From Xanthobacter dioxanivorans (GTDB lineage Bacteria; Pseudomonadota; Alphaproteobacteria; Rhizobiales; Xanthobacteraceae), in contig NZ_CP063362.1 of NCBI RefSeq assembly GCF_016807805.1, positions 3,266,501 through 3,330,500 on the forward strand: a stretch of DNA of 64,000 nt, written 5' to 3'. The notes under the pieces were generated by a model, which did not search any database, was not told the DNA's origin, and saw only the letters and a program-made list of their open reading frames with translations. The translations under genes were made by a program, and so were the position numbers. How positions within the stretch are numbered: position 1 is the first letter of the stretch; every line of letters starts with the position of its first letter. Shown here piece after piece: positions 32,890 to 62,108 of the stretch.

Positions 32890-33372
32890 ATGTCCATATC
32901 CTTCCTGCATTCCAAGGGAACAGAAGCGCCCATCAAGATCCCCGCCATTGGGCTCGATCTGTTCGTGCGCATGCCGCCGGCGGCGAGCTCGGGCGAGTTC
33001 TGCTTCATCGAGACCATCAATGCCCCGGGCGCCGGTCCCCCCCGCCATCGCCACCGCGAAGCCGAGATCTTCCGCGTCATCGAGGGCCGATATCTTTATG
33101 AGGCGGACGGCCGACGCTTTTATGCCGAGGCGGGCGACGTGGTCAGCATTCCCGGCGGGGTCGAGCACGGCTTCTGCAACGTGACCGACAAGCCCGCCCG
33201 CCAATACATCCTGATGGCGCCGGCCCTCGATGCGGCTGCCTTCTTCACCGAGCTCGCCGGCGTGATGCACGACGGCATCCCCGACCAGGCTGCGCTCAAT
33301 GCCTTCGGTCTGAAGTGGCACGTGGAGTTCCTCGGTCCGCCGGTGAGCAAGAACGACCAGCCCACGGATTGA
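32890..33372 (+). CDS. Cupin-domain protein (quercetin dioxygenase-like)
   Basis: A 160-residue single cupin. Metal-binding motif 1 is PPRHRHREAEIFRVIEG (two His and Glu) and motif 2 is GDVVSIPGGVEHGFCNV (His). A strong SD AAGGAGG precedes the ATG at 32890. Members are often dioxygenases or small-molecule binding proteins. It lies 78 nt before an aromatic FAD monooxygenase gene on the same strand, so a shared role in an aromatic or phenolic pathway is plausible. Confidence 0.85.
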   Translation: MSISFLHSKGTEAPIKIPAIGLDLFVRMPPAASSGEFCFIETINAPGAGPPRHRHREAEIFRVIEGRYLYEADGRRFYAEAGDVVSIPGGVEHGFCNVTDKPARQYILMAPALDAAAFFTELAGVMHDGIPDQAALNAFGLKWHVEFLGPPVSKNDQPTD

Positions 33373-33450: not shown

Positions 33451-34917
33451 GTGACTGATCGCGTTCTCATCGTCGGCGCGGGACCGGTCGGACTGACCAT
33501 GGCTCTGGAGCTGGCGCGCTACGGCGTGCAGGCCCGTATCATCGACAAGATCCCGGACGCGGAGCACACGTCGCGTGCGGTCGCGGTATGGCCGCGCACG
33601 CTGGAGCTTCTCGACCGCTCCGGTGCGGCAGCCGACCTGATTTCTCTGGGGAACAAGGTGACCGTCGCCAACCTCTTGTCGGGTGGCCGGCGCGTGGCGG
33701 CGTTGTCTCTCGATCAGGTGCCCTCACCCTATCCTTTCGTGCTCATGGTGCCGCAGTACGACACCGAATCCGTGCTGCGGCGTCATCTCGCGGCCCACGG
33801 GGTCGCGCCTGACCTCGGCATCGAGCTGCTCGATTTTGAACAGGATGCGGACGGCGTCTCGGCCCGCCTGCGCGGCAGCGATGGTGCCGAGAGCACCGAG
33901 CGCTTCGCCTTTCTGGTCGCCTGCGACGGGGCGCACAGCGTGGTGCGCCACCGCCTCGGCCTCGACTTCAAGGGCGACACCATGGGCCTCGACTGGACCC
34001 AGGGCGACTTTCACCTGAGCGGATATCCCTTCCCGCCGTCGCAGATGTCCATCTTCTGTCACGAGGACGGGCCGATGCTGTTCTTCCCCATGGGGCCCGA
34101 TCGCGCCCGCATCATCACCAGCCTCGGCCCGACGACCGGAAAGCCAGCGGTGCCGCTGGACCAGGACGCCTTCCAGAAAGTGCTGGATGTGCGTGGCCCC
34201 GGCGGCATCACGCTCACCGGGACGGTCTGGATCAGCGCCTTCCACATCAACGAGCGGCAGGTGGACAGCTATCGGACCGGACGGGTCTTCCTCGCCGGCG
34301 ACGCGGCCCACATCCACAGCCCGGCTGGCGGGCAGGGCATGAACACCGGCATGCAGGATGCGATCAATCTCGCCTGGAAGCTGGCGCTGGTGAGCCGCGG
34401 CATCGCCACCGCCCCGGCGCTTCTGGACAGCTATGACCCCGAGCGCCGCCCGGTGGGCGCACAGGTGATCGAGGCATCCGGGCGGATGACCCGGATGGCG
34501 ACGCTGGCCAACCCCATCCTGGAGCATCTGCGCGACGTGGCCGTCCATCTGCTGCTGGGGCTCGCGCCGGTGCAGCGGGCCATGACCGGGCTGATGGCGG
34601 AAGTCTCCATCGGCTATCCCCATAGCCCGCTCAACGGCCCATCCCGGGGCGAAGCGGCTGCGGGGTCGCGGGTGCGGCCGGTGGTGGGGGAGGTGCCGTT
34701 CGGCTCGGGCGACACGCCGCTGTTCGCCGCGTGCGGCGGAGCCGGCGCGACCGAACTCGCCTCCCGCTTTCCCCGGCTCGTGGCGTCGTCGCCTCGATCC
34801 GACGGCGGAGCTTTCATCTCGCTGGTCCGTCCGGACGGCTACCTCGCAGCCCAGGTGGAGGATGCGGACTGGCAGGCTCTCGTCCCCTATCTCCACCAGA
34901 TCGAGGCGGAGCGCTGA
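33451..34917 (+). CDS. FAD-dependent aromatic monooxygenase (PheA/TfdB group)
   Basis: A 488-residue class A flavin monooxygenase. It has the N-terminal dinucleotide fold VLIVGAGPVGLTMALELARY, the DG motif VACDGAHSVVRHRLGLD near residue 160 that touches FAD and NAD(P)H, and the GD motif GRVFLAGDAAHIHSPAGGQG near 280. Such enzymes hydroxylate phenols or related aromatics. The GTG start follows GGGAGGA at a normal distance. Length fits the family without the long C-terminal thioredoxin-like domain. Partner cupin upstream, decayed hydantoinase pair downstream. Substrate unknown. Confidence 0.88.
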   Translation: MTDRVLIVGAGPVGLTMALELARYGVQARIIDKIPDAEHTSRAVAVWPRTLELLDRSGAAADLISLGNKVTVANLLSGGRRVAALSLDQVPSPYPFVLMVPQYDTESVLRRHLAAHGVAPDLGIELLDFEQDADGVSARLRGSDGAESTERFAFLVACDGAHSVVRHRLGLDFKGDTMGLDWTQGDFHLSGYPFPPSQMSIFCHEDGPMLFFPMGPDRARIITSLGPTTGKPAVPLDQDAFQKVLDVRGPGGITLTGTVWISAFHINERQVDSYRTGRVFLAGDAAHIHSPAGGQGMNTGMQDAINLAWKLALVSRGIATAPALLDSYDPERRPVGAQVIEASGRMTRMATLANPILEHLRDVAVHLLLGLAPVQRAMTGLMAEVSIGYPHSPLNGPSRGEAAAGSRVRPVVGEVPFGSGDTPLFAACGGAGATELASRFPRLVASSPRSDGGAFISLVRPDGYLAAQVEDADWQALVPYLHQIEAER

Positions 34918-34962
34918 GCGCTCATTGCTTAAGACAGATCCCGAACGGTCTTGGCGGTCGGA

Positions 34963-35682: not shown

Positions 35683-35812
35683 CGGGTCCCCCGGATGGCG
35701 GCGGAATATCCGGCGCCATCCGATGCATCGCCCGGCGGTCCAGCGGCCGCGTGGGTTCATTTCATCCCTTGTTCCGGATCCAGCGACGTTCGGGCCCTTT
35801 CCTCCCGAGCCG

Positions 35813-37504
35813 CTATTTCTGCTTTGCGGTGAGCGGCACGTAGCAAGGCGTCCAGATCTTGGCGCGGATACGCTCCTCGATCTGATCGACGCTCACGCCG
35901 GGAGCATGGCCTTCCTTGTGCGTCTGCATCGCGACCGCGAGCGCGACATTCGCCGCGACCTCGCGCAGCGCGCTGACCGGGGGCAAGAGATTGTGCTTCG
36001 GGTTGTCGCGCGCAGGCGACGCATCGGCCAGCGCCTTCGCTGCCGCCATGAACATGCCGTCCGTGACGCGGCTCGCGCCGACCGCCAGAACGCCGAGGCC
36101 AACACCTGGGAATATGTAGGAATTGTTGGTCTGGTCCACCTTGAAGCGGGCGCCGTCGCGCATGAGCGGGGGAAACGGGCTACCGACACCCATCAGCGCC
36201 CGTCCTCCGGTCCAGGCTTCCATATCCGCCGGCGTCGCTTCCGCGCGCGAGGTCGGATTCGACAGCGGAAAGATCACCGGCCGCTGGTTGCACTCGGCCA
36301 TGGCGCGGACCACCGGCTCGCCGAAGGCGCCGGCCTGGCCGGAGACGCCGATCAGCACCGTTGGTCGCGCATTGCGCACCACGTCGAGAAGCTCGATCCT
36401 GTCGGGATGGCCCAGCGTCCAGCCGTCGATCGCCTGCCGCTTCTGCACGAAGGGGACCTGGAACGGGGCGAGGCCGTCCATGCCTTCGACCAGGAGGCCG
36501 TTACGATCGACCATGAAGAAGCGCGCCGCCGCCTCGCTCTCCGACAGGCCGGCGTCGCACATGGCCGCGCGGATCAGGCCGGCGATGCCGCAGCCGGCCG
36601 AGCCTGCGCCAAAGACGGCCACACGCTGTTGGGTCAGCGGCACGCCGGTGACAGTGATGGCCGCCAGCAAGGTGCCGGTCGCTACCGCGGCCGTGCCCTG
36701 TATGTCGTCGTTGAAGGTGCAAAGCCGGTCGCGATAGCGCTCGAGCAGGCGCGTCGCATTGTCCTTCGCAAAGTCTTCCCATTGCAGCAGGACCCGTGGC
36801 CAGCGCCGGATGACGGCCGAGACGAAGGCCTCGATGAAGTCGTCATAGTCCTGGCCCCGCACCCGCTCGTGGCGCCAGCCCACATAGAGCGGGTCTGCGA
36901 GGCAGTCTGTATTGTCGGTCCCCACGTCGAGCAGGATCGGCAAAGTCGTCGCGGGATGCAGTCCGCCGCAGCCGGAATAGAGCGCGAGCTTGCCGATGGG
37001 GATGCCCATGCCGCCCGCCCCCTGGTCTCCCAGCCCCAGGATGCGCTCCCCGTCGGTCACGACGATCGCCTCCACCGCGTCGAAGCGCGGCTGCGCGAAG
37101 ATCTGATCGAGCCTTGACTGGTGCGGAATGCTGAGGAAGAGGCCGCGCGGCTTGTGGTAGAGGCGGCTGAACTGCCGGCAGCCGGCACCGACCGTGGGCG
37201 TGTAGACGATGGGCAGCAGCTCTTCCAGGTTCCCGACCAGCGTCGCGTAGAACAGGGTTTCGTTGGTGTCCTGAAGCTCGCGGAGGAAGGCGTAGCGTTC
37301 GAGATCGGTCTCGAACTGGCGCAGCGACTGGAGTGCGCGGGAGATCTGCTCGTCCAGGGTCGAGACGTGCGGCGGCAGCAATCCGTGCAGATGGAAGGCG
37401 TCGCGCTCGGCTTCGGAGAACGCAGTACCCTTGTTGAGCTGGGGATCGGCCAGCAGTTCGTATCCGCTCAGCGCGGTGGCCATTGATGCCGTCGCCTCAG
37501 ACAT
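35813..37504 (-). CDS. maeA: NAD(P)-dependent malic enzyme
   Basis: A 563-residue malic enzyme: malate + NAD(P)+ to pyruvate + CO2. The N-terminal domain has the catalytic Tyr101 in IVYTPTVG and Lys172 in GGMGIPIGKLALY. The metal-binding acidic pair is in CTFNDDIQGTAAV, and the NAD fold in RVAVFGAGSAGCGIAGLIRA. Length about 560 fits the NAD-type MaeA/SfcA group rather than the longer phosphotransacetylase-fused form. A strong SD TAGGAGAG sits before the ATG, 11 nt past the CocE stop, so it ends the long minus-strand array and would supply pyruvate or NAD(P)H. Confidence 0.92.
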   Translation of the reverse strand: MSEATASMATALSGYELLADPQLNKGTAFSEAERDAFHLHGLLPPHVSTLDEQISRALQSLRQFETDLERYAFLRELQDTNETLFYATLVGNLEELLPIVYTPTVGAGCRQFSRLYHKPRGLFLSIPHQSRLDQIFAQPRFDAVEAIVVTDGERILGLGDQGAGGMGIPIGKLALYSGCGGLHPATTLPILLDVGTDNTDCLADPLYVGWRHERVRGQDYDDFIEAFVSAVIRRWPRVLLQWEDFAKDNATRLLERYRDRLCTFNDDIQGTAAVATGTLLAAITVTGVPLTQQRVAVFGAGSAGCGIAGLIRAAMCDAGLSESEAAARFFMVDRNGLLVEGMDGLAPFQVPFVQKRQAIDGWTLGHPDRIELLDVVRNARPTVLIGVSGQAGAFGEPVVRAMAECNQRPVIFPLSNPTSRAEATPADMEAWTGGRALMGVGSPFPPLMRDGARFKVDQTNNSYIFPGVGLGVLAVGASRVTDGMFMAAAKALADASPARDNPKHNLLPPVSALREVAANVALAVAMQTHKEGHAPGVSVDQIEERIRAKIWTPCYVPLTAKQK

Positions 37505-37515
37505 GAAGATCTCTC

Positions 37516-39309
37516 CTACCCCTGACCGGTACGCCGCAGCTCGATGAAGGTGTCCGGCCCGTAATGCAGGGTGTTGCGGGCGTAATAGGGCGGCACCTGC
37601 ACGTCGAACTGGGCGTGCCCGTGGCTCACGTCGCTGCGCAGGAGATCGGTGCGGCTGGCGATGTCGAGGCGCAGCCGCTCGCCCGGCATCAGCACCACGG
37701 GTTGGGGCGTGAGGCTGAAGCGCAGCGTCACCGGCACGCCGGGTGTCAGGGGCTCGGGCGTGTCGATGTCGATGGCGATCTCGGTCATGGTGGAGCGCGC
37801 CACATCGATCCTGCGGCAGGCAGGTCGGATCGCGCCCATGGAAAGGATCTGGTAGCCGCCGTCCGCCGAGACGAGGCCAGTGCGGGCCACCACGTAGGAA
37901 TCGATCTCGTTGCAACTGAAAGAAAGGCTCACGGTCACCGGGCCGGTCAGTTCCATCTCCTCTTCGATCGGCAGCTCGAAGGTGAGGCGCTGGCTCTCCA
38001 CCTCGTCGAAGCCCGCCGTCACGATGGCGCCGAGCGGCACCGCCGCCCATCGGTTCGTCCCGCCTTCGCCAGGCGCGCGGTCGAGGCGATGGGTTGCGGC
38101 GTCGGCGCCATTGGAGGCCGGGTAGAGGCGGAGCGCCGTGCTGCCCGGAAGGGGCCAATCCGAAGCGCTGCGATAGTCCTTCGCGCCTTCCGTCCAGTAT
38201 CGCACCCGCGGCTGGGCAGCATAGCCGTTGTCCGCGCCGTAGACGAGATGGTCGAAGAAGGCGAGCGCCTCCAGCTGCCACGCATAGACCGGCAGGTCAT
38301 AGGTCGCAGGGCCGACGATCAGCCAGCATTGATCCTTCGGCGTGCCGGCATTCTCGAACAGATCGTAGGCGCCGAACTGGTGCAGGTTGAGGTACCCGGC
38401 GTTCTGTACCACCACGAACGGCACCTCGATGTCGCCCAGCGCGCCGGACGGGCCGGCCGGTAGCACGCTGGTCGCCCGGGTCTTGCCGTCGAGCATGAGG
38501 CCGGCGAACAGCTGACGCGTCCGCGGCGTCGGCACCTGCCGCTGGAACGCCTTCATGATCCGCGCCATGCGCTTCTTCAGCTGCGGCCACCACACGTGCT
38601 TCAGGGCTGAGTTGGTGATGTGGCTCACCACCGCCCGCAGCAGCGGCGGCACGCGCAGCCGGAACTGCAGGGGCGTGAAGTTCGCGCCCATCCAGAGCGC
38701 GAAGAAATCGGGCTGCGGCGCACCGCCGAACATGGCGATGTGGCGGAAGTAGTCCGTGCACATCTCGTTGGTGAAGAAGCCCTTCAGGGCCGGCGGGCGA
38801 AGCCGCGCCACCTGTGGCTGGGTCAGCCCGTAATAGGAGGTGCCGAACAGCACCACCTGCCCGTCGCACCAGGGCTGGGCGGCCGCCCACTGGATGACTT
38901 TGGCGTGGTCCTCCACGTCCGTGTCGTTGAGGTAGACGGCCTCGGCGCCGCCCGAGCGGCCCATGCCACGGCGGGTGACGATCACATGCGCATAGCCGCG
39001 ATCGGTGAAGACCGGCGGGCTGCCGGTCTCGTTGTTGCCGGCAGGCACGCCGGCGGCCTGCAATTCCTTGGAATAGGCGGCGAAGGCGATGACCGCCGGA
39101 TAGCGGCCGGGTGCCTTGGGCACATAGACATCGGCGGCGAGCGCGATGGACGGAGCGACCTCGACCATCTGGTCCGCGAGGACGCGGCATCCGAGCCCGG
39201 ACTTCGCGGCGGGTCCCGGCGTCCAGCCGGCGAGCTGCGCGCCGAACAGGCCGCCCTTCGGCGCGATGAGATTGTCCCAGAAGCCGGGCTTCCCGTTCTT
39301 GTCCGCCAT
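37516..39309 (-). CDS. CocE/NonD family hydrolase (X-Pro dipeptidyl-peptidase fold)
   Basis: A 597-residue alpha/beta hydrolase. The nucleophile Ser158 is in VVLFGTSYYGLTQPQ; an early loop HVIVTRRGMGRSGGAE matches the family. The C-terminal half is the beta-sandwich domain of CocE and X-Pro peptidases (PVTVSLSFSCNEIDSYVVAR). No signal peptide, so cytoplasmic. Family members cleave esters or X-Pro peptides. It lies 51 nt downstream of the second NHLP-type gene. A peptidase/esterase acting on those small proteins or on an amide/ester substrate is possible but is inference only. Confidence 0.85.
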   Translation of the reverse strand: MADKNGKPGFWDNLIAPKGGLFGAQLAGWTPGPAAKSGLGCRVLADQMVEVAPSIALAADVYVPKAPGRYPAVIAFAAYSKELQAAGVPAGNNETGSPPVFTDRGYAHVIVTRRGMGRSGGAEAVYLNDTDVEDHAKVIQWAAAQPWCDGQVVLFGTSYYGLTQPQVARLRPPALKGFFTNEMCTDYFRHIAMFGGAPQPDFFALWMGANFTPLQFRLRVPPLLRAVVSHITNSALKHVWWPQLKKRMARIMKAFQRQVPTPRTRQLFAGLMLDGKTRATSVLPAGPSGALGDIEVPFVVVQNAGYLNLHQFGAYDLFENAGTPKDQCWLIVGPATYDLPVYAWQLEALAFFDHLVYGADNGYAAQPRVRYWTEGAKDYRSASDWPLPGSTALRLYPASNGADAATHRLDRAPGEGGTNRWAAVPLGAIVTAGFDEVESQRLTFELPIEEEMELTGPVTVSLSFSCNEIDSYVVARTGLVSADGGYQILSMGAIRPACRRIDVARSTMTEIAIDIDTPEPLTPGVPVTLRFSLTPQPVVLMPGERLRLDIASRTDLLRSDVSHGHAQFDVQVPPYYARNTLHYGPDTFIELRRTGQG

Positions 39310-39360: not shown

Positions 39361-39729
39361 CTACAATTGCGAGATGTCGAGGCCGGTCTTCTTCTGCGCG
39401 GCCAGCCGCATCTCGCGCACGACCCATTTCTGCTTGTCATCCGGAATGAAAAAGCCGCCGATTCCGGACGAGAACAAAAGATCGAAGACACGCTCCGTCA
39501 CCTCGGTGAGTGCCTGCTCCAGATCCGTCTCGGCCTCGGGCTTCGGCGGAACCACGATGACGATGGTGTCTTCCGCCTGCTCGATGATCTCGATCCTGAA
39601 ATCCGGATCGGGCGTGTAGCCGAACTCGGCGCAGACCACCCCGACCGGGTCGGCGAGGAGCTTCGCGCGGTAATGGGGATCGGTGGCGATGCGCTCGTAA
39701 TTCTTCTCGACGAAATCGGCATTGCTCAC
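39361..39729 (-). CDS. NHLP-type (nitrile-hydratase-leader-like) small protein 2, possible RiPP precursor
   Basis: A 122-residue protein. Residues 11-63 follow the NHLP leader plan: YERIATDPHYRAKLLADPVG, then EFGYTPDPDFRIEIIEQAED and TIVIVVPPKP. The leader is followed by a helical acidic part (EAETDLEQALTEVTERVFDL), a SSGIGG end with Gly-Gly at 91-92, and a 30-residue tail FFIPDDKQKWVVREMRLA and onward. NHLP leaders normally direct heterocycle or lanthipeptide modification of the tail, but no YcaO, LanM or NHLM exporter gene is seen here. The GTG overlaps the stop of NHLP protein 1 (GTGA). Its single Cys is at residue 33, inside the leader. Confidence 0.72.
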   Translation of the reverse strand: MSNADFVEKNYERIATDPHYRAKLLADPVGVVCAEFGYTPDPDFRIEIIEQAEDTIVIVVPPKPEAETDLEQALTEVTERVFDLLFSSGIGGFFIPDDKQKWVVREMRLAAQKKTGLDISQL

Positions 39730-40061
39730 GGCTGATCTCCCTCGGTGCGGGCCGCGTTGCGCAGGGCCAGCAGCTTGAATTTGGCGGCCACGGGCACGAG
39801 CCAGATGAACAGGCCCTGGCTGGACCACAGGTCCATCTGGTTGAGCGGCGCCGGTGGCGGGGGCGATTGCGGTGCGCGGGCGGGCGGGATGGTGAAGTAG
39901 ACCCGGTCGCGCCGCTGCACCACCACCTTCACCTTGACGCCGGCCGGCACCTCGACGCCCATGGTCTTGAGCGCCTCGACGGGATCGCTCTCCACCTGCG
40001 CAGCGAAGGCGTCGTCGGTCCAGACGCGCTTGGTCAGCTCTTTCTCGAAATCTCCGGACAT
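39726..40061 (-). CDS. NHLP-type (nitrile-hydratase-leader-like) small protein 1, possible RiPP precursor
   Basis: A 111-residue protein with the NHLP leader pattern almost throughout residues 10-60: KRVWTDDAFAAQVESDPVEA, then LKTMGVEVPAGVKVKVVVQR and VYFTIPPA, the wording of the nitrile hydratase alpha N-terminus. A Pro-rich link (QSPPPPAP) leads to a hydrophobic tail, SSQGLFIWLVPVAAKFKLLA, which has no Cys and only a few Ser/Thr, so classic thiazole or lanthionine chemistry looks unlikely. It is 68 nt after the Dld stop. No nitrile hydratase genes are nearby. Either an orphan RiPP precursor or an adaptor that uses the leader fold for a new purpose. Confidence 0.72.
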   Translation of the reverse strand: MSGDFEKELTKRVWTDDAFAAQVESDPVEALKTMGVEVPAGVKVKVVVQRRDRVYFTIPPARAPQSPPPPAPLNQMDLWSSQGLFIWLVPVAAKFKLLALRNAARTEGDQP

Positions 40062-40129: not shown

Positions 40130-41929
40130 TCAGCCGTCGCAGCGCAGCGCGGGCTTGGCGGACGCCTGTCCGCGCGGCATCCAGTGTGCGCACTTCGTGG
40201 TGCGGCCGATCCCCGGATTGAACGCGTTGCAGGGATCGAGCGCCTTGAAATGGTCGACCATGGCGGGCTTCGCAAAATAAAGGTGCCCCACATTGTGCTC
40301 GGCGGGATATTCCGCGCCGCGCGCATCGAGGAGCTTCCACATGGCGTGCTCGATCTCCTCGCAATTGCCGCCCTTGGCCACGATATAGTCCTGGTGGAAG
40401 ACGTGGCAGAAGAAGTGGCCGCAATAGAGCTTGCGGATCATGTGCTTGTCGATCTCTTCGGGCAGCGTCTCGAACCAGTTCTCGTCGTTGCGGCGGAGCG
40501 CGATGTCGAGCGCCACGATATCCTCCACCTCCTTGTCGTGGACCGCGCGATAGCGGATGGCGGCGCCGGCGGCGGCGAAGCGGTGCAGGAAGGCCTTGTC
40601 GCCTTCGTCCCGCGTGCACTCGAAATAGTCCCCGGACTTCGAAGGGAAGATCGACTTCAGATAGGCGCGGGCTTCCGCGATGCCGTCGTCCCCCATCTTC
40701 AGGAGCAGATAGTGTTCGAAGCGGTCGCGGTAGTCCGTCATGCGCCTGGGCAGATGCTTCGGGAAGAGGTGGCTCAAGGCCTGCAGCATCTTGGCGCTGA
40801 GATTTTTCGGCAGGAACGCGATCCGCCGGCAGAAATTGTCGAATGCCGCCTGAAGGGCGAACAGGCGCGGGATCATGTCGGTGCCGAGATAATGGATCAC
40901 CACGAAGGTGTCCTTGCCGTAGACCTCCGCGCAATTGAAGGAGTCCCGGTGCATGTACTCGCCTTCGATCGGCAGCTCCTTGAAGCTTCCGAGGATATGG
41001 CGGCGGATGCCTTCGAGCTCGCTGGTGTCATTCGAGCCGATGTAGAAGACGACCTGTTCCTTCTCCTTCAGGAAGGTGTCGAGCCGCACCGCCATCAGCA
41101 TCACCTTGCCGGCGCTGCCGGAGGCCTCGAACAGGCGGCGTGGATCGGCGTTGAAGCGGGAGGGGGTTGGCGCCTCGATGTCACGTACATGGTCGGCATA
41201 GTCATGGTCCGAGGCGGCGCGGGAGGGGTCGTTGACGATGTCGGCGGGGGTGAAATCGCCGCTCTCGATCCGCCGAAGGATCGTCTCCGGGTCGTTGCCC
41301 AGCGCGATGCCCAGGTGATTGACGAGATGCAGCCCGCCCGCCTCATCCAGCCGGGCGAACAGGGCAAGCTGGGTGAAGGCCGGACTACGATGGATCAGGG
41401 CGCCGCCGGAATTGTTGCAGACGCCGCCGAACACCGATGCGCCGATGCAGGACGAGCCGATTTCCGAGTGCGGCGCGCGGCCGATCCTGTCCAGCGCCTT
41501 CTCCAGATGGAACAGGGTCGTGCCCGGCAGGCACACCACCTGTGTTCCATCGTTGATCAGATGCAGGCCCTCAATACGCATGGTGTTGATGAGCACCACG
41601 CCACGGTCATAGTCGTCGCCGTCAGGGGTCGATCCGCCGGTGACGCCGGTGTTGGCCGACTGCAGGATGATGATCTTGTTTGCCGAGATGCAGGCCTTCA
41701 GCACCCGCCACTGCTCCACCAGCGACCCCGGCCGCACCACGGCAACCACCGGCCCGTTGCCGAACCGGATGCCGGTGCGAAAGCGCCGCGTCGCCTCGGG
41801 GCTTGTCAGGACATGCGATCGACCGACGATGTCCTGAAGGTGCCCGATGAGGGCCGCGTCATCGTCGAGCGTCTTTTGTCCAACTGCATCACGCGCCGGA
41901 ACGGTCAGATCGAGAAATGCGCCATCCAT
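40130..41929 (-). CDS. dld: FAD D-lactate dehydrogenase, quinone type (D-2-hydroxy acid oxidation)
   Basis: A 599-residue flavoprotein of the Dld type. The FAD-binding half shows KIIILQSANTGVTGGSTPDG, VLINTMRIEGLHLINDGTQV and GSSCIGASVFGGVCNNSGG; the C-terminal membrane-facing half ends AEHNVGHLYFAKPAMV and FNPGIGRTTK. Length and motifs match E. coli Dld (about 570 aa), which passes electrons to quinone. Here it sits directly after benzoylformate decarboxylase, so the true substrate may be D-mandelate or another bulky D-2-hydroxy acid. ATG at 41929 has GGAGCGG before it; a TTG/ATG further up is unlikely. Confidence 0.9.
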   Translation of the reverse strand: MDGAFLDLTVPARDAVGQKTLDDDAALIGHLQDIVGRSHVLTSPEATRRFRTGIRFGNGPVVAVVRPGSLVEQWRVLKACISANKIIILQSANTGVTGGSTPDGDDYDRGVVLINTMRIEGLHLINDGTQVVCLPGTTLFHLEKALDRIGRAPHSEIGSSCIGASVFGGVCNNSGGALIHRSPAFTQLALFARLDEAGGLHLVNHLGIALGNDPETILRRIESGDFTPADIVNDPSRAASDHDYADHVRDIEAPTPSRFNADPRRLFEASGSAGKVMLMAVRLDTFLKEKEQVVFYIGSNDTSELEGIRRHILGSFKELPIEGEYMHRDSFNCAEVYGKDTFVVIHYLGTDMIPRLFALQAAFDNFCRRIAFLPKNLSAKMLQALSHLFPKHLPRRMTDYRDRFEHYLLLKMGDDGIAEARAYLKSIFPSKSGDYFECTRDEGDKAFLHRFAAAGAAIRYRAVHDKEVEDIVALDIALRRNDENWFETLPEEIDKHMIRKLYCGHFFCHVFHQDYIVAKGGNCEEIEHAMWKLLDARGAEYPAEHNVGHLYFAKPAMVDHFKALDPCNAFNPGIGRTTKCAHWMPRGQASAKPALRCDG

Positions 41930-41988
41930 GGCATCCGCTCCCTTGCACAAGCTGTGATTTCAGCGTCGAGAGAAGAAGTTCCGGATGC

Positions 41989-43641
<1,653 letters not shown>

Positions 43642-43821: not shown

Positions 43822-46128
43822 TCATCCGATGGCGGAGCGAACGGCGTCCGGCGTGATGGGAATGTGCCGCAGCCGCGCACCGACGGCGTTGAAGATGGCA
43901 TTGCCGATGGCCGGCCCCACCACCGTCGTGGCCGGCTCTCCCAGCCCGACCGGGACCTCGATACTGTCGACGAAGCCGGTGTCCATCTGCGGAATGTCGC
44001 TGATGCGCAACGGCATGTAGCTGTTGAGATTGGTATCTTTCACCTGGCCGCGCTCGAAAACGGTCCCCTCGTGCAGGGCCATGCTGAGGCCCCACAATGC
44101 GGCGCCCTCGACCTGCGCGCGCGCGCCGTCGGGATCGACCACGGTGCCGGCATCAGCGACGAGCGTCAGCTTCTCCACCCGGACGGCGCCTGTGGGCCGG
44201 TCGACGTGGACCCGCGCCACGCAGGCGATCCAGGTCGGCATGGTCCGTTCCTGCCCGAAGCTGGTGGCCAGCCCGAGGGCGGTATCGGCCGGGAGCGGAG
44301 CGCCCCAGCCGGCCCGCGCGGCCGCCCGGCGGACGACCTCAGCCTGCCGCAGCGCACCGCCCACCGCGTTCGGCGCCGAGCCGGCGTTGCGACCCTTCGC
44401 GTCGAGCAGCTTCAGCCGGAAGGCGACAGGGTCCTCCTTGGCATGGTGGGCGGCCTCGTCCATGAAGCTTTCCAGCGCCCAGTTGGTCCAGCCCGGCCCC
44501 ACCGAACGCAGCCAGCCCGGACGGAAAGCGGCGTTCGCCAGATCGTTCGAGATGGCGCGCACCTTCTGCGCGCCGACACTGTACCAATGGTCGGCACCGG
44601 AGATGGAGAACGGATCGTAGAGAACGCCGTTCGCGCCCTTCGGCATCAAGGATGGCGTCATGACCTGCGACGGCCACCCGGCGGCCGCGTCGTGCTCCAT
44701 CGCGGTCACCTCGCCGCCCGCACCGAATGCCATGCGCAGCCGCTGCACCGAGGGCGAGCGGGGGGAATCAAAGCGGGCATCGTCCTCCCGCGTGAGCACC
44801 ATTTTCACCGGCTTGGCGAGCGCCTTCGCCGCCAGCGCGGCCGGCACTGCGTAATCGCCGTTCAGCCGGCGGCCGAAACCGCCGCCGATCAGGTAGGTGC
44901 GCAGGATGATGCCGGTCTCGGGTCGCCCGAGCGCCTTGGCCAGCGTCGGCAGGATCAGGCTCTGCCACTGGTTGCCGGTGTGGATCTCGAACACGCCGTC
45001 CTTCTCGAATGCGAGCGCGTTGACGGGCTCGAGCTGGAAATGCAGCACGGTCGCGGTGGTGTAGGTCTGCTCCAGCGTCGACTGCGCCGCCTTGAACGCC
45101 GCCGCCGTGTCACCGCCCCCGGTGTCGAGCACGGCGCCGGCGTCCGGCTGGGCGATCAACTGGGCGGCGTGATCCTGGATATCCTTCTCGGACACGGCGG
45201 ACGTCGGCCCAGGAGTCCAGTCCACCCGGACGAGATCGGCGGCGCGGATGGCGGCGGGATAGCTTTGCGCAATCACCATCACCCAGCCCGGCACGGTGCC
45301 CGAGGGATCATCGAGCACGAGACTGCCGACATAGCCCTTCACCGCTTTGGCCGCGCTGTCGTCGACCCCGTTGACCTTCGCGCCGTTCCGCGTCGGGGGG
45401 ATCTTCGGCCGGGCATAGACCATGCCGGGGACCTTGGCGTCGATGCCATAGCGTGCCGTGCCGTCGGTCTTCGGCGGGATGTCGAGGGCCTGAACCGGCC
45501 GGCCGACCAGGCGCCGCTCGGAGGCCGGCTTGATGGGCAACTTCTCGAGTTCGTCCGCAGAAAATCGACGCACGGGGACGCCCTGCCGGGCGATCTCGCC
45601 GAAGGTGAGGGAAGCGCCACCCGCAACCACGGTGCCATTCTCGACCCGGCATGCCGACGGGTCGACGCCGAGGCGCTTCGCGCCCTGCTCGATCAGCGCG
45701 ATGCGCCCGGCCGCTCCGGCCCGGCTGAACAGGGGGAAGCTCTGCCACACCGACCAGCTGCCGCCCGTGACCATCAGACCCCATTTCGGATCGGTGTCCA
45801 CATGGAGGATGCGCACCTTGTCCCAGTCGGCGCCAAGCTCGTCCGCAAGGATGCGGGCGAGCGCGGTGCCCACATGCTGGCCCATCTCGGCGCGGATGAT
45901 GTTGATGCTCACCCAACCCTCACCGTCGATGGCGAACCACAGCGTGGGCTCGAACAGGGGCCCGGCCTCGGCCGGTGGCATGCCGCCCGGCACGGCGGGA
46001 TCCATCGCCGCCGCGGCACCGCGGGGAAAGCCGAAGGCGAGGCTCGCACCGACACCCGCGCCGACGCTGGCGACCAGGAAGCCGCGCCGGGTCAACACGG
46101 GCGCGCCCGGATTCATCCCTCTAGCCAT
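43822..46128 (-). CDS. Molybdopterin subunit of an aldehyde-oxidoreductase-type enzyme (IorB/AldH-like)
   Basis: A 768-residue large subunit of the xanthine oxidase family. A Tat signal is present ([20 protein letters not shown]), so the mature enzyme is periplasmic or membrane-bound. Mo-binding pieces include [54 protein letters not shown] and [20 protein letters not shown]. It is the IorB-like type, separate from the FeS subunit. The ATG overlaps the FeS subunit stop by 8 nt (ATGGCTAG), so the two are coupled. With the three-haem cytochrome it matches the AldFGH aldehyde dehydrogenase of acetic-acid bacteria; isoquinoline oxidation is the alternative. Confidence 0.9.
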
Positions 46129-46579
46129 GGTTCGCCTCGGCTGCCTTCCTGATCGCTGCGCGGATGCGCACATAGGTCATGCAGCGGCAGAGATTGCCGG
46201 TCATGACGGCGTCGATCTCCCCATCCGTGGGGTGCGGGAAGTCCTTGAGCAGGGCGACCGCCTGCATGATCTGGCCGGACTGGCAGTAGCCGCATTGGGG
46301 CACCTGCAAGTCTTTCCAGGCCGTCTGCACCGGGTGGGCGCCATGGGGGTCCAGTCCCTCTATGGTCGTGACCTCCGCCCCCTCCACCGTGCCCACCGCA
46401 GTGATGCAGGAGCGCGTTGCCCGACCGCCCACATGGACGGTGCAGGCCCCGCACATGCCGATGCCGCAGCCGAACTTGGTGCCGGTCAGCCCAATCTCGT
46501 CGCGCAGGACCCAGAGGAGCGGCGTGTCGTCGTCGACATCCACCGTCGTGGCGCGACCGTTGAGGGTGAAGCGGGTCAT
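46121..46579 (-). CDS. [2Fe-2S] subunit of the aldehyde-oxidoreductase-type enzyme (IorA/AldG-like)
   Basis: A 152-residue electron-transfer subunit with two [2Fe-2S] clusters. The plant-type cluster is [12 protein letters not shown] plus a later Cys in RSCITAVG; the second is the helical CGYCQSG with [12 protein letters not shown]. It lacks a signal peptide and would be exported with its Tat-tagged partner, as is known for this family. ATG at 46579; ends by overlapping the Mo subunit. It sits 30 nt after the cytochrome gene stop. Confidence 0.92.
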
Positions 46580-49006: not shown

Positions 49007-49222
49007 ATGGAAACGCCCCTGACGCGGTGGCTCTGCCTTGGATGCGGCTTCTCGTATGACGAGGCCCTCGGCCTTCCGGAGCACGGCTTGCCGCCGGGCA
49101 CCCGCTGGGCCGACGTGCCCGACGACTGGGTCTGCCCCGATTGCGGCACCCCAAAGGGCCAGTTCGAGATGGTGGAGATGGGCTATTCGGAAGGCGGCGC
49201 CGATCTGGCGCGCATCGCCTGA
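49007..49222 (+). CDS. Rubredoxin
   Basis: A 71-residue iron protein with the two rubredoxin knuckles: Cys10-x2-Cys13 in [15 protein letters not shown] and Cys43-x2-Cys46 in [14 protein letters not shown]. The family's WxxVPDDWxCP pattern is complete. The 20-residue C-terminal tail is slightly longer than classic. SD GGGAGGAAG lies before the ATG. As first gene of the plus-strand array it may pass electrons to an oxygenase or to the fused molybdoenzyme. Confidence 0.93.
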
Positions 49223-49248
49223 GCCGACCGGAACCAAGGGAGGCAACC

Positions 49249-50058
49249 ATGAGCAAGTCTTTCGTGCTTCGGGCGGGCGAGCGCGGCCACGATGTCATCT
49301 ATTCAGACGGCAGCGCCTCGTCCTACGTGGCCGGACATCCGGGCAGCCACATCAGCCGCGAGTCCAGCTTCAACTTCCATCAATACCAGGATGGCCGCCC
49401 CGGCTTCGGCACCGTCCGCGTGTTCGGTGATGAAGTCTTCAATGGCGCCGGGTGCGGCTACAACATGCATCCGCACCACAATTTCATCATCTGCGCCTTT
49501 GTGCTGGAAGGCGAGCTGACCCACATCAACACCGCCGGCCGCGGCATGGTCGACCAGCTTCGGCAGGGCGATTACTACGTGTTTTCGGCGGGCTCTGGCG
49601 GGAAGCACTGCGAGCTTTCCATCAGTCCTGAGAACATGAACGCGATCTATCTGTGGCTCATGCCCGGCCAGCTCTATCTGCCGCCGAGCTACCATCGCGC
49701 CCATTTCGACATCCGCACGCGGCGCAACCGCATCGTCCAGCTGGTGGGCGACGCCGACGGCGCGCTGCCGGTGGCGCAGGATCTGCGTGTCTCGCGTCTG
49801 GTGACCGACCGCGCCGGCCGCTTCACCTACACCCCGCGTACCCCGGAGCATGGGGTGTATGTGTTCGTCGCGGAGGGCGGCGCCACCGTAAACGGGGCGG
49901 CGCTGGCGCGTCGCGACAGCATGGGCATCACCGGCGCCGGGGCTCTCGCGCTCGATGTTCCCGACAGCTCCGACATCTTCTTCGTCGAGACCGCCATGCT
50001 CGACGACGCCCGCATCCGCGCCTGGGAAAAGGCGAATGGCGCCGACCTCCTCGACTGA
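49249..50058 (+). CDS. Pirin-like bicupin protein
   Basis: A 269-residue protein of the pirin/YhhW kind. The N-terminal cupin has the metal ligands in YNMHPHHNFIICAFVLEGEL plus a following His (THINTAG); the C-terminal cupin is degenerate (GVYVFVAEGGATVNG, then DSMGITGAGALAL), as usual. Such proteins bind iron and some have quercetinase activity. AAGGGAGG precedes the ATG, 26 nt after the rubredoxin stop. A role in oxidation of an aromatic substrate is inferred from the group. Confidence 0.85.
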   Translation: MSKSFVLRAGERGHDVIYSDGSASSYVAGHPGSHISRESSFNFHQYQDGRPGFGTVRVFGDEVFNGAGCGYNMHPHHNFIICAFVLEGELTHINTAGRGMVDQLRQGDYYVFSAGSGGKHCELSISPENMNAIYLWLMPGQLYLPPSYHRAHFDIRTRRNRIVQLVGDADGALPVAQDLRVSRLVTDRAGRFTYTPRTPEHGVYVFVAEGGATVNGAALARRDSMGITGAGALALDVPDSSDIFFVETAMLDDARIRAWEKANGADLLD

Positions 50059-50095
50059 AGGCGCGCCGGGCGATCCGTCCCCAAGGGAGATGACA

Positions 50096-50674
50096 ATGCC
50101 GATCATGGACGTGCGTTATGCCGCCGGGACGCTCGATGCGGCGGCGAAAGCCGATCTTGCCGCGCGCCTCACCGACGTGCTCATCAAAATGGAGGGCGGC
50201 GCCAACACGCCCGGCGGGCGGGCCTTCGCCTGGGTGTTCTTCACCGCCTTCGCCGCGGATGACTGGTGGATCGGCGGCCACACCGACGGAACCTACGTGA
50301 CCGGTCCGGGCAAGTTCCTGGTCAACGTCTTCATCCCCGAAGGCTACATGAACGTCACGCACAAGAACGAGGTTCATGCCTGGGTGGCGGAAGCGATCGC
50401 CGGGGCGACGGGCTGCACCGATCCGGCCGGCAGCCTGCTCACCGTCATCAACGAGGTGACCGAGGGCAATTGGGGCGACGGCGGCCAGCCCATCAGCCTG
50501 GAATCCATCGCCAGGACGGTGGGCCAGGACGGTGGCCCCCGACCGCTCTGGTCGCGCGCCTATTTCGAGGCCAAGGCGCGGTCCATGGTGGCGGCGGGCT
50601 ATCCCGCCGATACCGGCGGAATGCTGCCCTCGCTGCGGCCGCGGCTGCTAGCCGCGACCGCAGACCCGGCCTGA
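50096..50674 (+). CDS. Long tautomerase-family protein (192 aa)
   Basis: A 192-residue protein beginning MPIMDVRYAAGTLDAAAKAD, so Pro1 would be exposed after Met removal, as in 4-oxalocrotonate-type tautomerases. The core is DWWIGGHTDGTYVTGPGKFL and VNVFIPEGYMNVTHKNEV. The C-terminal 60 residues (EAKARSMVAAGYPADTGGML) are an extension. ATG at 50096 is preferred over 50090 because it exposes the Pro and has AAGGGA 7 nt upstream. Likely isomerises an unsaturated keto acid or similar intermediate. Confidence 0.78.
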   Translation: MPIMDVRYAAGTLDAAAKADLAARLTDVLIKMEGGANTPGGRAFAWVFFTAFAADDWWIGGHTDGTYVTGPGKFLVNVFIPEGYMNVTHKNEVHAWVAEAIAGATGCTDPAGSLLTVINEVTEGNWGDGGQPISLESIARTVGQDGGPRPLWSRAYFEAKARSMVAAGYPADTGGMLPSLRPRLLAATADPA

Positions 50675-58703: not shown

Positions 58704-59876
58704 GTGAAAGACACGGAGCGCGAACTCGCCGATTGCGTCGGCGCCATCTATCAGGCCGGCGCCGGGGACGGCAGCTGGTTCGACGTTGGCGACCGCATCT
58801 GCCGGATCATGGATGCCCGGCGCGCTTTGCTGAACCTCGGCGGCCCCGGGGGGCCTCGCAACTTGCTGATGCCTGCCGACGGCAGCGAGAGCGCATATTC
58901 GGACTATTTCCACGCCAGAGACCCCTATGCTGCCAAGGCCCGCTACGACTTTGCGACAGCGCGGGCCTACCACCTCGGCAACGCGAAGCTCGGCGCCGAG
59001 CTGGTCGCCGAAACCGAACTCCTCCGCAGCGAATATTACTTCGACTTCGCCCGGCATCACGAGCGTCGCCATGTGATCGGCGGCATGGCCGGCCTCACGG
59101 AGGCGACGCCCATATTGGTGTCCCGCGGCGACGACACGGGCGCATTCGACGAAACCCATGTCCGCTTGCTCAAGACCCTGATGCCGCACGTCCAGCGCGC
59201 CATCGAGCTGCGCGCACGGCTGGGGCGGGATGACGAGGCGGTCGCCCTGACGCGGGCCGCCCTGGACGCGCTTCCCGTGGGCGTGGGCGTCGTCGATGCG
59301 GGGCTGAAGATCCGCTTCATCAACGATCTCGCCCGCAGGTATCTGGCCGGGCCCGATTCCGGCCTGTTCTCCATGCGCTCGGGCCCTTATGCCGGCAGTG
59401 GCGTGTACCTCGCGGCCATGTCCCGCGGAGAGGCCGGCGTGCTCCGCAAACTCGTTGCATCCGCCACGTCGGGAGGCTCCGGAGGTGCTATGCGTGTCAC
59501 CTCGCGCAACGGCGCAATCGCGGCGCTGACGGTCGCCCCGGCGCCGCTAGGCCTTGCCAATGACGTGAGAGGGCGGGACGAAGGCGATACCAGGGACCCT
59601 TTGGCTCTCATCCTCCTGCGGCCGCTCAACCGCAAGGTGGTGCCGCAGGCGGACATGCTGTGCGAGATGTTCGGCCTCAGCCGGGCCGAAGCGGAGGTCG
59701 CCGTCGCGCTTACCGGCGGCGCCAGCGCCGAGGATGTGGCGCGCGGACGCGGGGTCTCGCTCATGACCGTCCGCAGCCAGATCCGATCGATCCTGGGCAA
59801 GTCGGAAGCAGAGAATTTGCGCGACTTCGAGCGCACCATGGCGACCCTCGGCGCACTCGTGCCGCAGCTGCGCTGA
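58704..59876 (+). CDS. LuxR-type HTH regulator with N-terminal sensory region
   Basis: A 390-residue regulator. The LuxR helix-turn-helix is at the C-terminus (LSRAEAEVAVALTGGASAED, VSLMTVRSQIRSILGKSEAE, about residues 325-375). The N-terminal about 210 residues look like a GAF/PAS-like sensor; a second PAS-like part is DALPVGVGVVDAGLKIRFIN. It lacks a receiver domain, so it responds directly to a ligand. GTG start; SD weak. It lies between the molybdoenzyme array and ubiX/ubiD in the same direction and may regulate one or both. Confidence 0.87.
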   Translation: MKDTERELADCVGAIYQAGAGDGSWFDVGDRICRIMDARRALLNLGGPGGPRNLLMPADGSESAYSDYFHARDPYAAKARYDFATARAYHLGNAKLGAELVAETELLRSEYYFDFARHHERRHVIGGMAGLTEATPILVSRGDDTGAFDETHVRLLKTLMPHVQRAIELRARLGRDDEAVALTRAALDALPVGVGVVDAGLKIRFINDLARRYLAGPDSGLFSMRSGPYAGSGVYLAAMSRGEAGVLRKLVASATSGGSGGAMRVTSRNGAIAALTVAPAPLGLANDVRGRDEGDTRDPLALILLRPLNRKVVPQADMLCEMFGLSRAEAEVAVALTGGASAEDVARGRGVSLMTVRSQIRSILGKSEAENLRDFERTMATLGALVPQLR

Positions 59877-59991
59877 AGGGTGTTCGGCCGGCCCGTCGGT
59901 CGGCTCGCGTCCCGCATAGACAGTTCTGACGATGAGGCGTCGCGCCCGGCTGGCTAGGCTGCGTCCATTCGAACCGGACCGAATGTGCGCC

Positions 59992-60615
59992 ATGCAACAG
60001 CACGTCACCCCTGCGCCCCGCCCTCGGATGATCGTCGGGATCAGCGGCGCCACCGGGATCATCTTCGGGCTGTGCATCCTGGAGGTGCTGCGGCGCCTCG
60101 GCATCGAGACCCATCTCGTCATGTCGAAGCCGGGTGAGCGCACGCTCGCCTGCGAGACGGATTTGAAGGTGCGCGACGTGCGCGCCATGGCGGACTTCTC
60201 CTATGCGGATGCCGACATCGGCGCCGCAATTGCCTCGGGCTCGTTCCGAACCATGGGCATGATCGTTGCGCCGTGCTCGGCGAGGAGCCTGTCGGCCATC
60301 GCCACCGGCAACACCGATGGCCTGCTCACGCGCGCGGCCGACGTCTGCCTGAAGGAGCGTCGCCGGGTCGTTCTCATGTTCCGCGAGACGCCCCTGCATG
60401 CGGGCCACATCCGCGCCATGGCGCAGGCCACCGAGAACGGCGCCATCGTCTTCCCGCCTGTTCCGGCCTTCTACGACCGGCCCGCCTCGCTTTCCGACAT
60501 GGTGAACCACACCGTCGGGCGCGTGCTCGACCTGTTCGACGTGGATGCGGGCCTGGTGCGCCGCTGGAGCGGCAAGCCGACCGCCAGCACTCCCACCGCT
60601 GGCACGGTGGCCTAG
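59992..60615 (+). CDS. ubiX: UbiX-type flavin prenyltransferase
   Basis: About 207 residues. It makes prenylated FMN, the cofactor of UbiD decarboxylases. The flavoprotein fold starts MIVGISGATGIIFGLCILEV; further family segments are MIVAPCSARSLSAIATGNTD and VLMFRETPLHAGHIRAMAQA. Two Met codons upstream (59983, 59932) are possible starts; 59992 gives a typical length. It stops 11 nt before ubiD, so the pair is co-transcribed. Confidence 0.92.
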   Translation: MQQHVTPAPRPRMIVGISGATGIIFGLCILEVLRRLGIETHLVMSKPGERTLACETDLKVRDVRAMADFSYADADIGAAIASGSFRTMGMIVAPCSARSLSAIATGNTDGLLTRAADVCLKERRRVVLMFRETPLHAGHIRAMAQATENGAIVFPPVPAFYDRPASLSDMVNHTVGRVLDLFDVDAGLVRRWSGKPTASTPTAGTVA

Positions 60616-60626
60616 GAGCACCCGTC

Positions 60627-62108
60627 ATGCCCCTGCTCGATCTACGCCAATATATCGAGGCCTTGCGCAACCTGGGAGAAGTTCAGGACGTTGCGGCTCC
60701 GGTCTCGCTGAACCTGGAACTCGGCGCCATCATCCGACACTGCGCGGAGACGGGCTCGCCCGCGCCGCTCTTCCGTGCGTTTTCTGATCATCCCACAGGC
60801 TTCCGCATTCTCGGCGCGCCCGCCGCGGCCAGCGCCCAGCGGAGCCTCGAGATGGTTCGTGCGGCGACATCGCTCGAACTGCCTCCGACATCCAGCGGGA
60901 CCGATATCGCCGAGGCCGTCGCAGCCAGCCTCGATCTGCCCGCCATCGACCCGGAGATTGTCGATAGCGCGCCCTGCTTCGAGAACATATCGACCGGCGA
61001 CGATGTGGATCTGAACCGCCTGCCGGTGCCGATGCTGCATGACGGCGACGGCGGGCGATATGTCAACACCTTCGGCTGCATCGTCGCGCGCACGCCGGAC
61101 GGTGCGTGGACCAACTGGTCGATCGCCCGCATCATGGTGGTCGACGGCAAGCGCATGACCGGGCTCGTCTCGCCCCAGCAGCATATCGGCATGGTGGCCA
61201 AGGCCTGGGCCGACAAGGACGAGCCCATGCCTTTCGCCCTGGCGCTCGGCGTCGAGCCATCCATTCCCTTCATCTGCGCCATGCCGCTGCCGGCCAACGT
61301 GGACGAGAGCGGCCGGCTCGGCGCCCTGATGCGTCGGCCGATCCGGACCGTGCGCTGCCGGACCGTCGACCTCGAAGCTCCGGCGAGCGCGGAAATCCTC
61401 ATCGAGGGCCATCTGCATCTCGGCGAGAAGGCAATGGAAGGGCCCATGGGGGAGTATCCGGGCTACATCCCGATCGGACCCGCCGAGGACGGCCCGGTCT
61501 ACCATGTCTCGGCGATCAGCCATCGCGACGATGCCATCCTGCCGGTCGTCGCTGCCGGGGAGCCGGCGGAGGAGAACCACACCGTCTGGGGGACCATGAC
61601 TTCGGCCCAGATTCTGCACGATCTCAGGGCCGCCGGGATCGCCGCGACCACGGCGTGGATCCCACTGCAGAGCGCACTGCACTGGCTGGTGGTGACGGTT
61701 CCGCGCGACTGGCGCCGTCGCACCGGCATCGACACCGCGCACGCGCTGTGTCGGCGCATTGGCGAAGTCATGTTCTCGACCAAGGCTGGCGTCATCGTCC
61801 CCAAAGTGGTCGTGCTGAGCGACGACATCGATCCGAACGATCTCAAGGAACTGGTCTGGGCCTTCGCCACGCGCTGCCACCCGCTGCTCGGCCATGCCAT
61901 CTTCCGCCACGAGCCCGAGGACCCGCTGGTCGGCTATCGGCGCACCAACGAGAAGGTGGCCGCCAGCACCGGCAAGATCGTCTACAATTGCCTTGCCCCG
62001 GACGAATGGGGCGAAGCCCTGCCGGTGCGGGCCTCGTTCCGTCATGGCTATCCGGCGGAGATCGTCGACCGCGTGCGTCGGCGCTGGAGCGAGTACGGGT
62101 TCACGTAA
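60627..62108 (+). CDS. ubiD: UbiD-family decarboxylase
   Basis: A 493-residue prFMN-dependent (de)carboxylase. The family's catalytic region is visible: ANVDESGRLGALMRRPIRTV near residue 225 and GEYPGYIPIGPAEDGPVYHV near 270, with the Glu-Arg-Glu triad expected in this area. The N-terminus MPLLDLRQYIEALRNLGEVQ is also typical. An AGGAG sits 7 nt before the ATG. UbiD enzymes act on aromatic or unsaturated acids. Whether this one works in ubiquinone synthesis or in aromatic catabolism is not visible; its place after the oxidative array favours catabolism. Confidence 0.93.
   Translation: MPLLDLRQYIEALRNLGEVQDVAAPVSLNLELGAIIRHCAETGSPAPLFRAFSDHPTGFRILGAPAAASAQRSLEMVRAATSLELPPTSSGTDIAEAVAASLDLPAIDPEIVDSAPCFENISTGDDVDLNRLPVPMLHDGDGGRYVNTFGCIVARTPDGAWTNWSIARIMVVDGKRMTGLVSPQQHIGMVAKAWADKDEPMPFALALGVEPSIPFICAMPLPANVDESGRLGALMRRPIRTVRCRTVDLEAPASAEILIEGHLHLGEKAMEGPMGEYPGYIPIGPAEDGPVYHVSAISHRDDAILPVVAAGEPAEENHTVWGTMTSAQILHDLRAAGIAATTAWIPLQSALHWLVVTVPRDWRRRTGIDTAHALCRRIGEVMFSTKAGVIVPKVVVLSDDIDPNDLKELVWAFATRCHPLLGHAIFRHEPEDPLVGYRRTNEKVAASTGKIVYNCLAPDEWGEALPVRASFRHGYPAEIVDRVRRRWSEYGFT

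Follow-up and report, generated by a model that had tools for sequence, protein, structure and literature searches.

In the stretch of Xanthobacter dioxanivorans DNA analyzed here (64,000 nucleotides; "the window"), two small genes on the reverse strand are flanked on one side by a gene for a Dld-type FAD D-2-hydroxyacid dehydrogenase (dld; 40130..41950, −) and on the other by a gene for a CocE/NonD-type (Peptidase_S15 plus PepX_C) alpha/beta-hydrolase-fold protein of 597 aa (CocE; 37516..39309, −). As the first-pass annotation had described, the pair comprises open reading frames of 111 and 122 codons, NHLP1 (39726..40061, −; ATG start) and NHLP2 (39361..39729, −; GTG start), and the end of the former overlaps the start of the latter by four bases, GTGA. 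This exact overlap was found in 22 of 26 loci examined, with start codons picked by script. Both proteins open with a domain resembling NHLP and nitrile hydratase alpha (NHase alpha) sequences and end in a conserved tail motif. In NHLP1 the domain spans residues ∼4 to 61 and the motif, NQMDLWSSxxxFxWxxPxxxKxxLLxxR, residues ∼74 to 101; in NHLP2 the domain spans residues ∼5 to 71 and the motif, YDxLFSSGIGGxxIPDDxxKWxxRxMR, residues ∼82 to 108, with the Gly-Gly at 91-92 correctly placed by the first reading.

Beyond dld lie genes for a benzoylformate decarboxylase of the mdlC type (BFD; 41989..43575, −), present in 8 of 18 named loci, and for the large subunit of a molybdopterin aldehyde oxidoreductase (43822..46173, −), which occurs in fewer than 3 of the 18 and is not a constant partner. 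On the CocE side, a malic enzyme (35813..37489, −) recurs in 8 of the 18, and a cupin protein (32890..33372, +) and an FAD-dependent (FAD_binding_3) monooxygenase (33451..34917, +) are each found near the pair in 15. Further module genes encode a pirin-family protein (49141..50058, +) and a tautomerase-family protein (49955..50674, +), the starts of both probably lying further in. A regulator-like protein (58704..59876, +), without Pfam or NCBIfam match and LuxR-type by eye, also recurs with the module. It is followed by a protein matching Pfam Flavoprotein (59932..60615, +), called UbiX-type by eye because of its placement before a UbiD-family decarboxylase ORF (60273..62108, +), whose true start is further in. 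Two other features of the window were observed. Short ORFs at 34951-35843 (+), one of 118 aa matching S-methyl thiohydantoin desulfurase and one of 179 aa of which about half matches hydantoinase, look like remnants, the genes of relatives at the same place coding for 366 to 379 aa and 516 aa. At 15764-24418 (+), a 2,884-aa ORF has glycoamylase and GH94 domains, and we take it to be a probable cyclic beta-1,2-glucan synthase.

The window order of 2-hydroxyacid dehydrogenase, BFD and aldehyde oxidoreductase would fit a mandelate-type pathway, which consists of mandelate dehydrogenase, MdlC and aldehyde dehydrogenase, and we infer that these three enzymes would suit an aromatic 2-hydroxy acid. 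However, Dld and BFD are not constant, being absent or swapped in other loci, and UbiD, the cupin, the flavin monooxygenase, CocE and the NHLP pair are no part of the mandelate pathway.

The NHLP leader pattern noted in the first pass reflects real homology, although both proteins stay under the curated cut-off of TIGR03793 (50.9 bits), NHLP1 scoring 41.9 bits (E 7e-11) and NHLP2 25.0 bits (E 1e-5). Scores against Pfam NHase_alpha (17.8 bits for NHLP1, 25.5 bits for NHLP2) were likewise below the cut-off of 27.2. In profile searches of the PDB, the NHLP leader 8tb1 was matched with E 3.4e-9 (NHLP2) and 6.8e-6 (NHLP1), and many NHase alpha chains were also matched by both families. Chance does not account for these matches, since single-sequence searches yielded 112 homologues of NHLP1 and 142 of NHLP2, NHLP1 precedes NHLP2 in the same order in all 18 named loci, and the four-base overlap is retained in 19 of 21 close loci. 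The cysteine claw of NHase alpha is of the CxLCSC type; no such claw is present in the 111 and 122 residues of the window proteins, both of which have the claw-less NHase-alpha-like leader domain.

The NHase alpha chains 4zgj, 4zgd and 1v29 appear to contain two NHLP-like stretches each, as from an internal duplication. In 4zgj these lie at 46-96 and 117-165 and are singly weak (i-E 0.015 and 0.054). What we take to be the position of the claw is flanked by the two stretches in several NHase alpha chains. Each member of the pair is similar to NHase alpha and thiocyanate hydrolase gamma (PF02979, TIGR01323, TIGR03887) in matching these stretches; unlike NHase alpha, the pair lacks the claw and the remaining subunit and has family-specific tails. 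Beyond the pair, the X. dioxanivorans genome holds two NHLP-like matches; their frames, at 215 and 223 codons, are about as long as NHase alpha.

Among the matches listed for both proteins (for NHLP2 the best 120 of 142), most were full length. When divergent members served as queries, 152 homologues were obtained, and the best 120 of these included sequences from Pseudovibrio, Bradyrhizobium, Agrobacterium, Acetobacteraceae, Streptomyces, Nocardia and Acidimicrobiia; Bordetella occurs among the NHLP1 homologues and Thiocapsa among those of NHLP2. Because homologues are found in these proteobacterial and actinobacterial groups, the pair is, judged by sequence similarity, a cross-phylum family of at least two phyla, reaching from Alpha- and Gammaproteobacteria and Bordetella to Actinobacteria. 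It is rare in surveys of the order, class and phylum. In the order, NHLP2 was matched at 1e-6 in 11 of 397 genomes, one of which (G134) carries RiPP-type precursors by its ORFs and another (G318) the same weak kind of match (39.6 bits); three loci (L024, L025 and L027) were left out of this ORF reading. In the class, NHLP1 was matched in 4 of 385 genomes, full length in X. dioxanivorans only and over 56 to 67 positions in the other three, and 2 of 398 genomes of the phylum gave a match. Within the genus, 8 of 14 members listed have the pair. X. dioxanivorans has one copy of each gene; plasmid-borne pairs occur in Methylocystis, Neorhizobium and Streptomyces, with two plasmid copies in Methylocystis parvus. 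A phage origin was considered and rejected: 53 viral-contig stretches fit a pattern, and none encodes a relative. No description of the pair or of its combination with the module was found in the open-access literature searched, and on these searches alone the pair is undescribed.

The order dld-NHLP-NHLP-CocE, proposed earlier for testing across genomes, proved to be conserved in part. Among the large partners of the pair, CocE is the most constant, being the next gene within 100 bases downstream in 17 of the 18 named loci, whereas dld is not constant: a full-length copy lies within 4 kb of the pair in 9 of the 18, and besides the window only L008 and L017 among the named loci have it directly upstream of NHLP1. 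The thiamine pyrophosphate (TPP) enzyme varies as well, BFD in 8 loci (one cut at a contig end) being replaced by a different TPP enzyme in 9, with neither in L013. Since contig ends cut some flanks, the locus counts for flavin monooxygenase, cupin, malic enzyme, Dld and TPP enzymes are lower bounds. On two plasmids of M. parvus the order is NHLP1-NHLP2-rubredoxin-pirin-tautomerase-CocE-x-GST-mdlC, which places CocE ∼2.0 kb downstream of the pair. Four plasmids of Streptomyces goshikiensis/Mg1 carry CocE-NHLP1-NHLP2-mdlC, with CocE directly upstream and the first three genes overlapping by 4 bases in 4 of 4; these plasmids count as one event, because their NHLP2 copies are 94 to 97% identical to one query.

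The pair is also found without an adjacent CocE gene in L034/L035, S. anthocyanicus, Neorhizobium and Methylocapsa (L016). In the Pseudovibrio-type loci L034/L035 (type assigned by nearest homologues), it stands after a gene for an APH-like kinase, and apart from the pair itself no match to ten module queries was found in the 15 kb fetched. In Neorhizobium, genes for a nitrilase-family protein and an alpha/beta hydrolase precede NHLP1 and NHLP2, and in Methylocapsa a PHB-type esterase gene follows the pair in the place of CocE.

The association with CocE was further evident in surveys of the family of X. dioxanivorans, for which the sample sizes differed slightly. NHLP2 was present in 13 of 248 genomes (partial in G1155), NHLP1 in 12 of 218 and CocE with at least 73% identity in 13 of 238, and the 13 genomes with NHLP2 were the same 13 as those with CocE. 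In one of them (G271, Bradyrhizobium-type by the homologue P0237), the pair (1344550-1345216) and CocE (1307638-1309407; 73% identity) are ∼35 kb apart. Near this CocE are homologues of BFD (88%), the flavin monooxygenase (57%), the cupin (65%), UbiD (49%) and the regulator (57%); pirin and tautomerase genes lie between CocE and the pair; and adjoining the pair are a malic enzyme (85%), a PapA-type acyltransferase (70%) and an 84% identical gene without Pfam match, alpha/beta-hydrolase-like by eye. This layout indicates that the module keeps to one region as a gene set even if it is split. Evolutionary distances correlated between NHLP1 and NHLP2 (r 0.93), NHLP2 and CocE (0.93) and NHLP1 and CocE (0.89), and the cupin tracked the pair as well as CocE did (r 0.92 and 0.94, the latter with NHLP2). 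The values for NHLP2 were 0.80 with the flavin monooxygenase and 0.15 with the TPP enzyme, for which two families were mixed. Part of this correlation reflects the common descent of linked genes, and genomes of a single family do not give phylogenetically independent evidence of co-occurrence. Nor is the pair always required by CocE, since relatives with 59 to 62% identity occur in 5 genomes outside the 13 carriers.

The tails had been described in the first pass as completely different. This description is right only in part. Each tail is strongly conserved, and the two may be homologous: a match between them can be drawn by eye (D-L-x-S-S-G ... P ... K ... L ... R), and in hhalign comparisons with column-shuffled alignments, the score was reached by 2 of 200 shuffles in one set-up and, with more diverse sequences, by 12 (local) and 26 (global) of 250. 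This possible homology forms no part of the interpretation given below. Among six divergent sequences (Xanthobacter, Bradyrhizobium, Pseudovibrio, Neorhizobium and two Streptomyces types), the tail motif exceeded the NHLP part in identity in all 15 pairwise comparisons for each protein, with medians of 57 versus 44% for NHLP1 and 63 versus 41% for NHLP2. Median dN/dS values, estimated by a Nei-Gojobori type method with our own script from 20 closer orthologues each, were 0.073 (NHLP1) and 0.044 (NHLP2) for the tail motifs, compared to 0.141 and 0.176 for the NHLP parts; the bounds of the motifs underlying these comparisons were fixed after the alignments had been seen. For whole tails the values were 0.140 (NHLP1) and 0.105 (NHLP2), and the whole NHLP1 tail is therefore constrained like its NHLP part, not above it. 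Invariant residues are N, D, W, S, K and R in the NHLP1 tail and D, GxGG, P, W, R and R in that of NHLP2. In the six loci the motifs, 28 to 30 residues long, contain 0 to 1 Cys and 1 to 5 Ser plus Thr.

According to Haft et al. 2010 (PMC2887384), the conserved part of NHLP precursors ends at a Gly-Gly and is followed by a hypervariable core rich in Cys, Ser and Thr; the same authors describe large paralogous families and a correlation with an ABC exporter. NHLP1 and NHLP2 resemble these precursors, proteusins included, as small proteins that open with a claw-less NHase-alpha-like domain. In contrast to them, the pair has conserved rather than hypervariable tails with hardly any Cys, and neither tail forms a Cys/Ser/Thr-rich core. 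No Gly-Gly box ends either leader: the window NHLP1 has no GG, and the GxGG of NHLP2 is inside its most conserved segment. With single copies in X. dioxanivorans, the pair forms no large paralogous family there. The three tandem precursor ORFs of another locus of the same order (L037:6839-8308), called RiPP-type by their EL..L..V.GG-like Gly-Gly boxes and having variable tails, show the reverse of the pair's pattern, with leader identities of 43 to 53% and core identities of 7 to 21%.

The first-pass annotation had also suggested orphan precursors served by remote YcaO, LanM or NHLM genes. The X. dioxanivorans genome contains neither a YcaO nor a LanC-like gene, and NHLM_ABC2 matches were found in it only below the cut-off. 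Among the 19 pair-carrying genomes (X. dioxanivorans and 18 others), YcaO was present in 3, LanC-like in none and NHLM_ABC2 above its cut-off in none (TIGR03797 being the one export model searched); sub-threshold NHLM_ABC2 matches occurred in all 19 and in 14 of 14 controls alike. A Peptidase_C39 domain was found in 5 of the 19 (X. dioxanivorans and 4 of the other 18) and was absent from 14. In X. dioxanivorans it is part of a 741-aa ABC frame (contig C1, 2292808-2294895) that also holds the best NHLM_ABC2 match of the genome, scoring 413 bits against a cut-off of 709.4. Because the tails are conserved across phyla, the leader lacks a Gly-Gly end and no YcaO, LanC-like or NHLM_ABC2 partner is shared, the precursor reading is unsupported, and most likely NHLP1 and NHLP2 are not natural-product precursors. 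The name "NHLP leader peptide family natural product," commonly given to small NHase-like genes and carried by several NHLP1 homologues, is probably wrong for the cross-phylum pair family.

By its domain, the window CocE belongs to the CocE/NonD hydrolases (TIGR00976, 180.2 bits against a cut-off of 66.3; cocaine esterase 1ju3/3pui; 3ib3), and it keeps the nucleophile Ser158 in GTSYYG (GxSYxG motif), a Ser that is found in 25 of 25 aligned rows. For the other triad members we took Asp259 (GWYD) and His287 (GPWSH) of cocaine esterase as reference positions. Unlike in cocaine esterase, these positions are lost in the window CocE, which is tied to the NHLP pair; its His position was placed by eye. 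Neither GWYD nor GPWxH occurs in any of the 25 rows. S. goshikiensis CocE has Asn at the Asp259 position and a gap at the His287 position (counted on the alignment), and in the other 24 rows the corresponding stretches read QNxGY[LF]NLH and [GA][PS]xx[YF][DE]LP. The four relatives fetched from the five non-carriers (L066 to L069; ∼61% identity) share the altered positions, L068 and L069 having a His one place earlier (APxHY), and their fetched stretches gave no match to the other module queries. Since the solved relative 3ib3 deviates at the Asp and His positions too, the altered triad may belong to a wider CocE branch. Other residues could substitute for Asp and His; judged from its sequence, the protein has a predicted hydrolase fold, and activity is not to be assumed. 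The earlier suggestion that CocE might act as the processing peptidase of the NHLP tails is unsupported and doubtful, since the protein differs at the positions where the catalytic Asp and His usually stand.

Given tails nearly unchanged in distant bacteria and recurring enzyme genes beside them, parts of an undescribed protein machine are likelier than precursors. We consider it reasonably probable that the NHLP pair is a heteromeric accessory subunit working with the CocE-type protein in a mobile oxidation and decarboxylation module. The NHLP domains of NHLP1 and NHLP2 would pair with each other to form this subunit, with both conserved tails docking on a partner enzyme's active site or completing it. 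In this lineage the main partner would be the CocE-type protein; in others, different alpha/beta-hydrolase-fold or oxidative enzymes may take its place. Together with a TPP decarboxylase and the flavin monooxygenase, the CocE-type unit would serve an oxidative or decarboxylating pathway for small molecules, transferred between genomes as a module. Family membership, pairing, tail constraint and CocE co-occurrence are what the sequences show, whereas the complex itself, the docking of the tails, the pathway and its substrate are what we infer. The loci without an adjacent CocE gene, the cupin's equally close tracking of the pair, the motif bounds set after alignment, the higher dN/dS of the whole tails and the CocE relatives of non-carriers count against this reading. 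A docking subunit agrees with PMC12455567, in which the NHLP leaders of RiPPs are rigid folded proteins bound by enzymes via several surfaces. The first-pass alternative of a leader fold reused as an adaptor or subunit for neighboring enzymes also fits the CocE co-occurrence and the Streptomyces gene overlap; dld, which it had counted among the partners, is not a constant one. The pair is a variant within the NHase-alpha/NHLP superfamily whose subunit role is plausible but unproven. In S. anthocyanicus, a "RidA family protein" (L046:8154-9008), encoded after a flavin monooxygenase gene, is a RidA-NHLP1 fusion with NHLP1 as its C-terminal half; this single example suits a subunit role.

A bolder version of the subunit reading, which we offer tentatively and hold to be rather doubtful, is that the pair and the triad-altered CocE constitute a new three-component enzyme, in which the tails supply the missing part of the active site and which acts on the product or substrate of the TPP decarboxylase. 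CocE-NHLP1-NHLP2-MdlC would be its minimal unit. If this were true, the NHLP "leaders" of RiPPs would be one branch of a wider enzyme-docking family.

Other explanations have to be weighed against the accessory-subunit reading. NHLP1 and NHLP2 might be the two precursors of a two-component RiPP, with the conserved tails as the cores from which an invariant product, for instance a redox cofactor, is made. The cores of PQQ and mycofactocin are likewise conserved, and an invariant product would also give conserved tails. The genuine homology to TIGR03793, the flavin, TPP and molybdenum redox enzymes among the genomic partners, the invariant G-x-G-G of NHLP2 and the presence of Peptidase_C39 in the same ABC frame as the best sub-cut-off NHLM_ABC2 match all point this way. 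We nevertheless regard such a product as quite improbable: no modifying enzyme is constant, the YcaO, LanC-like, NHLM_ABC2 and Peptidase_C39 counts given above speak against common machinery, the tail motifs are nearly devoid of Cys, the GxGG lies within a conserved segment instead of at its end, and the RiPP-type precursors of L037 show the opposite conservation. It is unlikely, though slightly less so, that the pair is an enzyme in its own right, derived from NHase alpha but claw-less, with an active site built from the invariant tail residues. Polar and aromatic side chains prevail among these residues, as they would at a catalytic or ligand site, both proteins are similar to the stretches of NHase alpha that look NHLP-like, and the Neorhizobium operon opens with a nitrilase-family gene and ends with the pair; on the other hand, the Cys claw is absent, no NHase beta gene was found beside the pair in annotated loci (by annotation), and an interface could use the same invariant residues.

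The least probable explanation, to which we give very little credence, is that the pair is a passenger or regulatory bystander of a catabolic operon, retained through linkage. Its occurrence among accessory, mobile gene sets, in only part of the genus members listed and on plasmids of Methylocystis, Neorhizobium and Streptomyces, would be expected of a passenger, but the two genes are under strong purifying selection, are strictly paired, persist in two phyla and are inherited together with CocE even at a distance of ∼35 kb, all of which argues against it.

In its overall interpretation the first-pass annotation was thus partly supported, and the interest of the pair lies more in its being a non-RiPP family than in its being an orphan precursor. 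Our findings suggest that the NHLP fold would work outside RiPPs as a protein-docking partner, for which CocE-NHLP1-NHLP2-BFD, with its unusual CocE, is a small testable unit. The pair also bears on the kinship of RiPP leaders and NHase alpha, which seemingly holds two such stretches. As a separate observation, a gene for a PapA5-like acyltransferase recurs beside the module in 6 of the 18 named loci and in G271 (examples at L007:13959-15221 and L036:5772-7208), which hints that the module may make, not break down, a compound.
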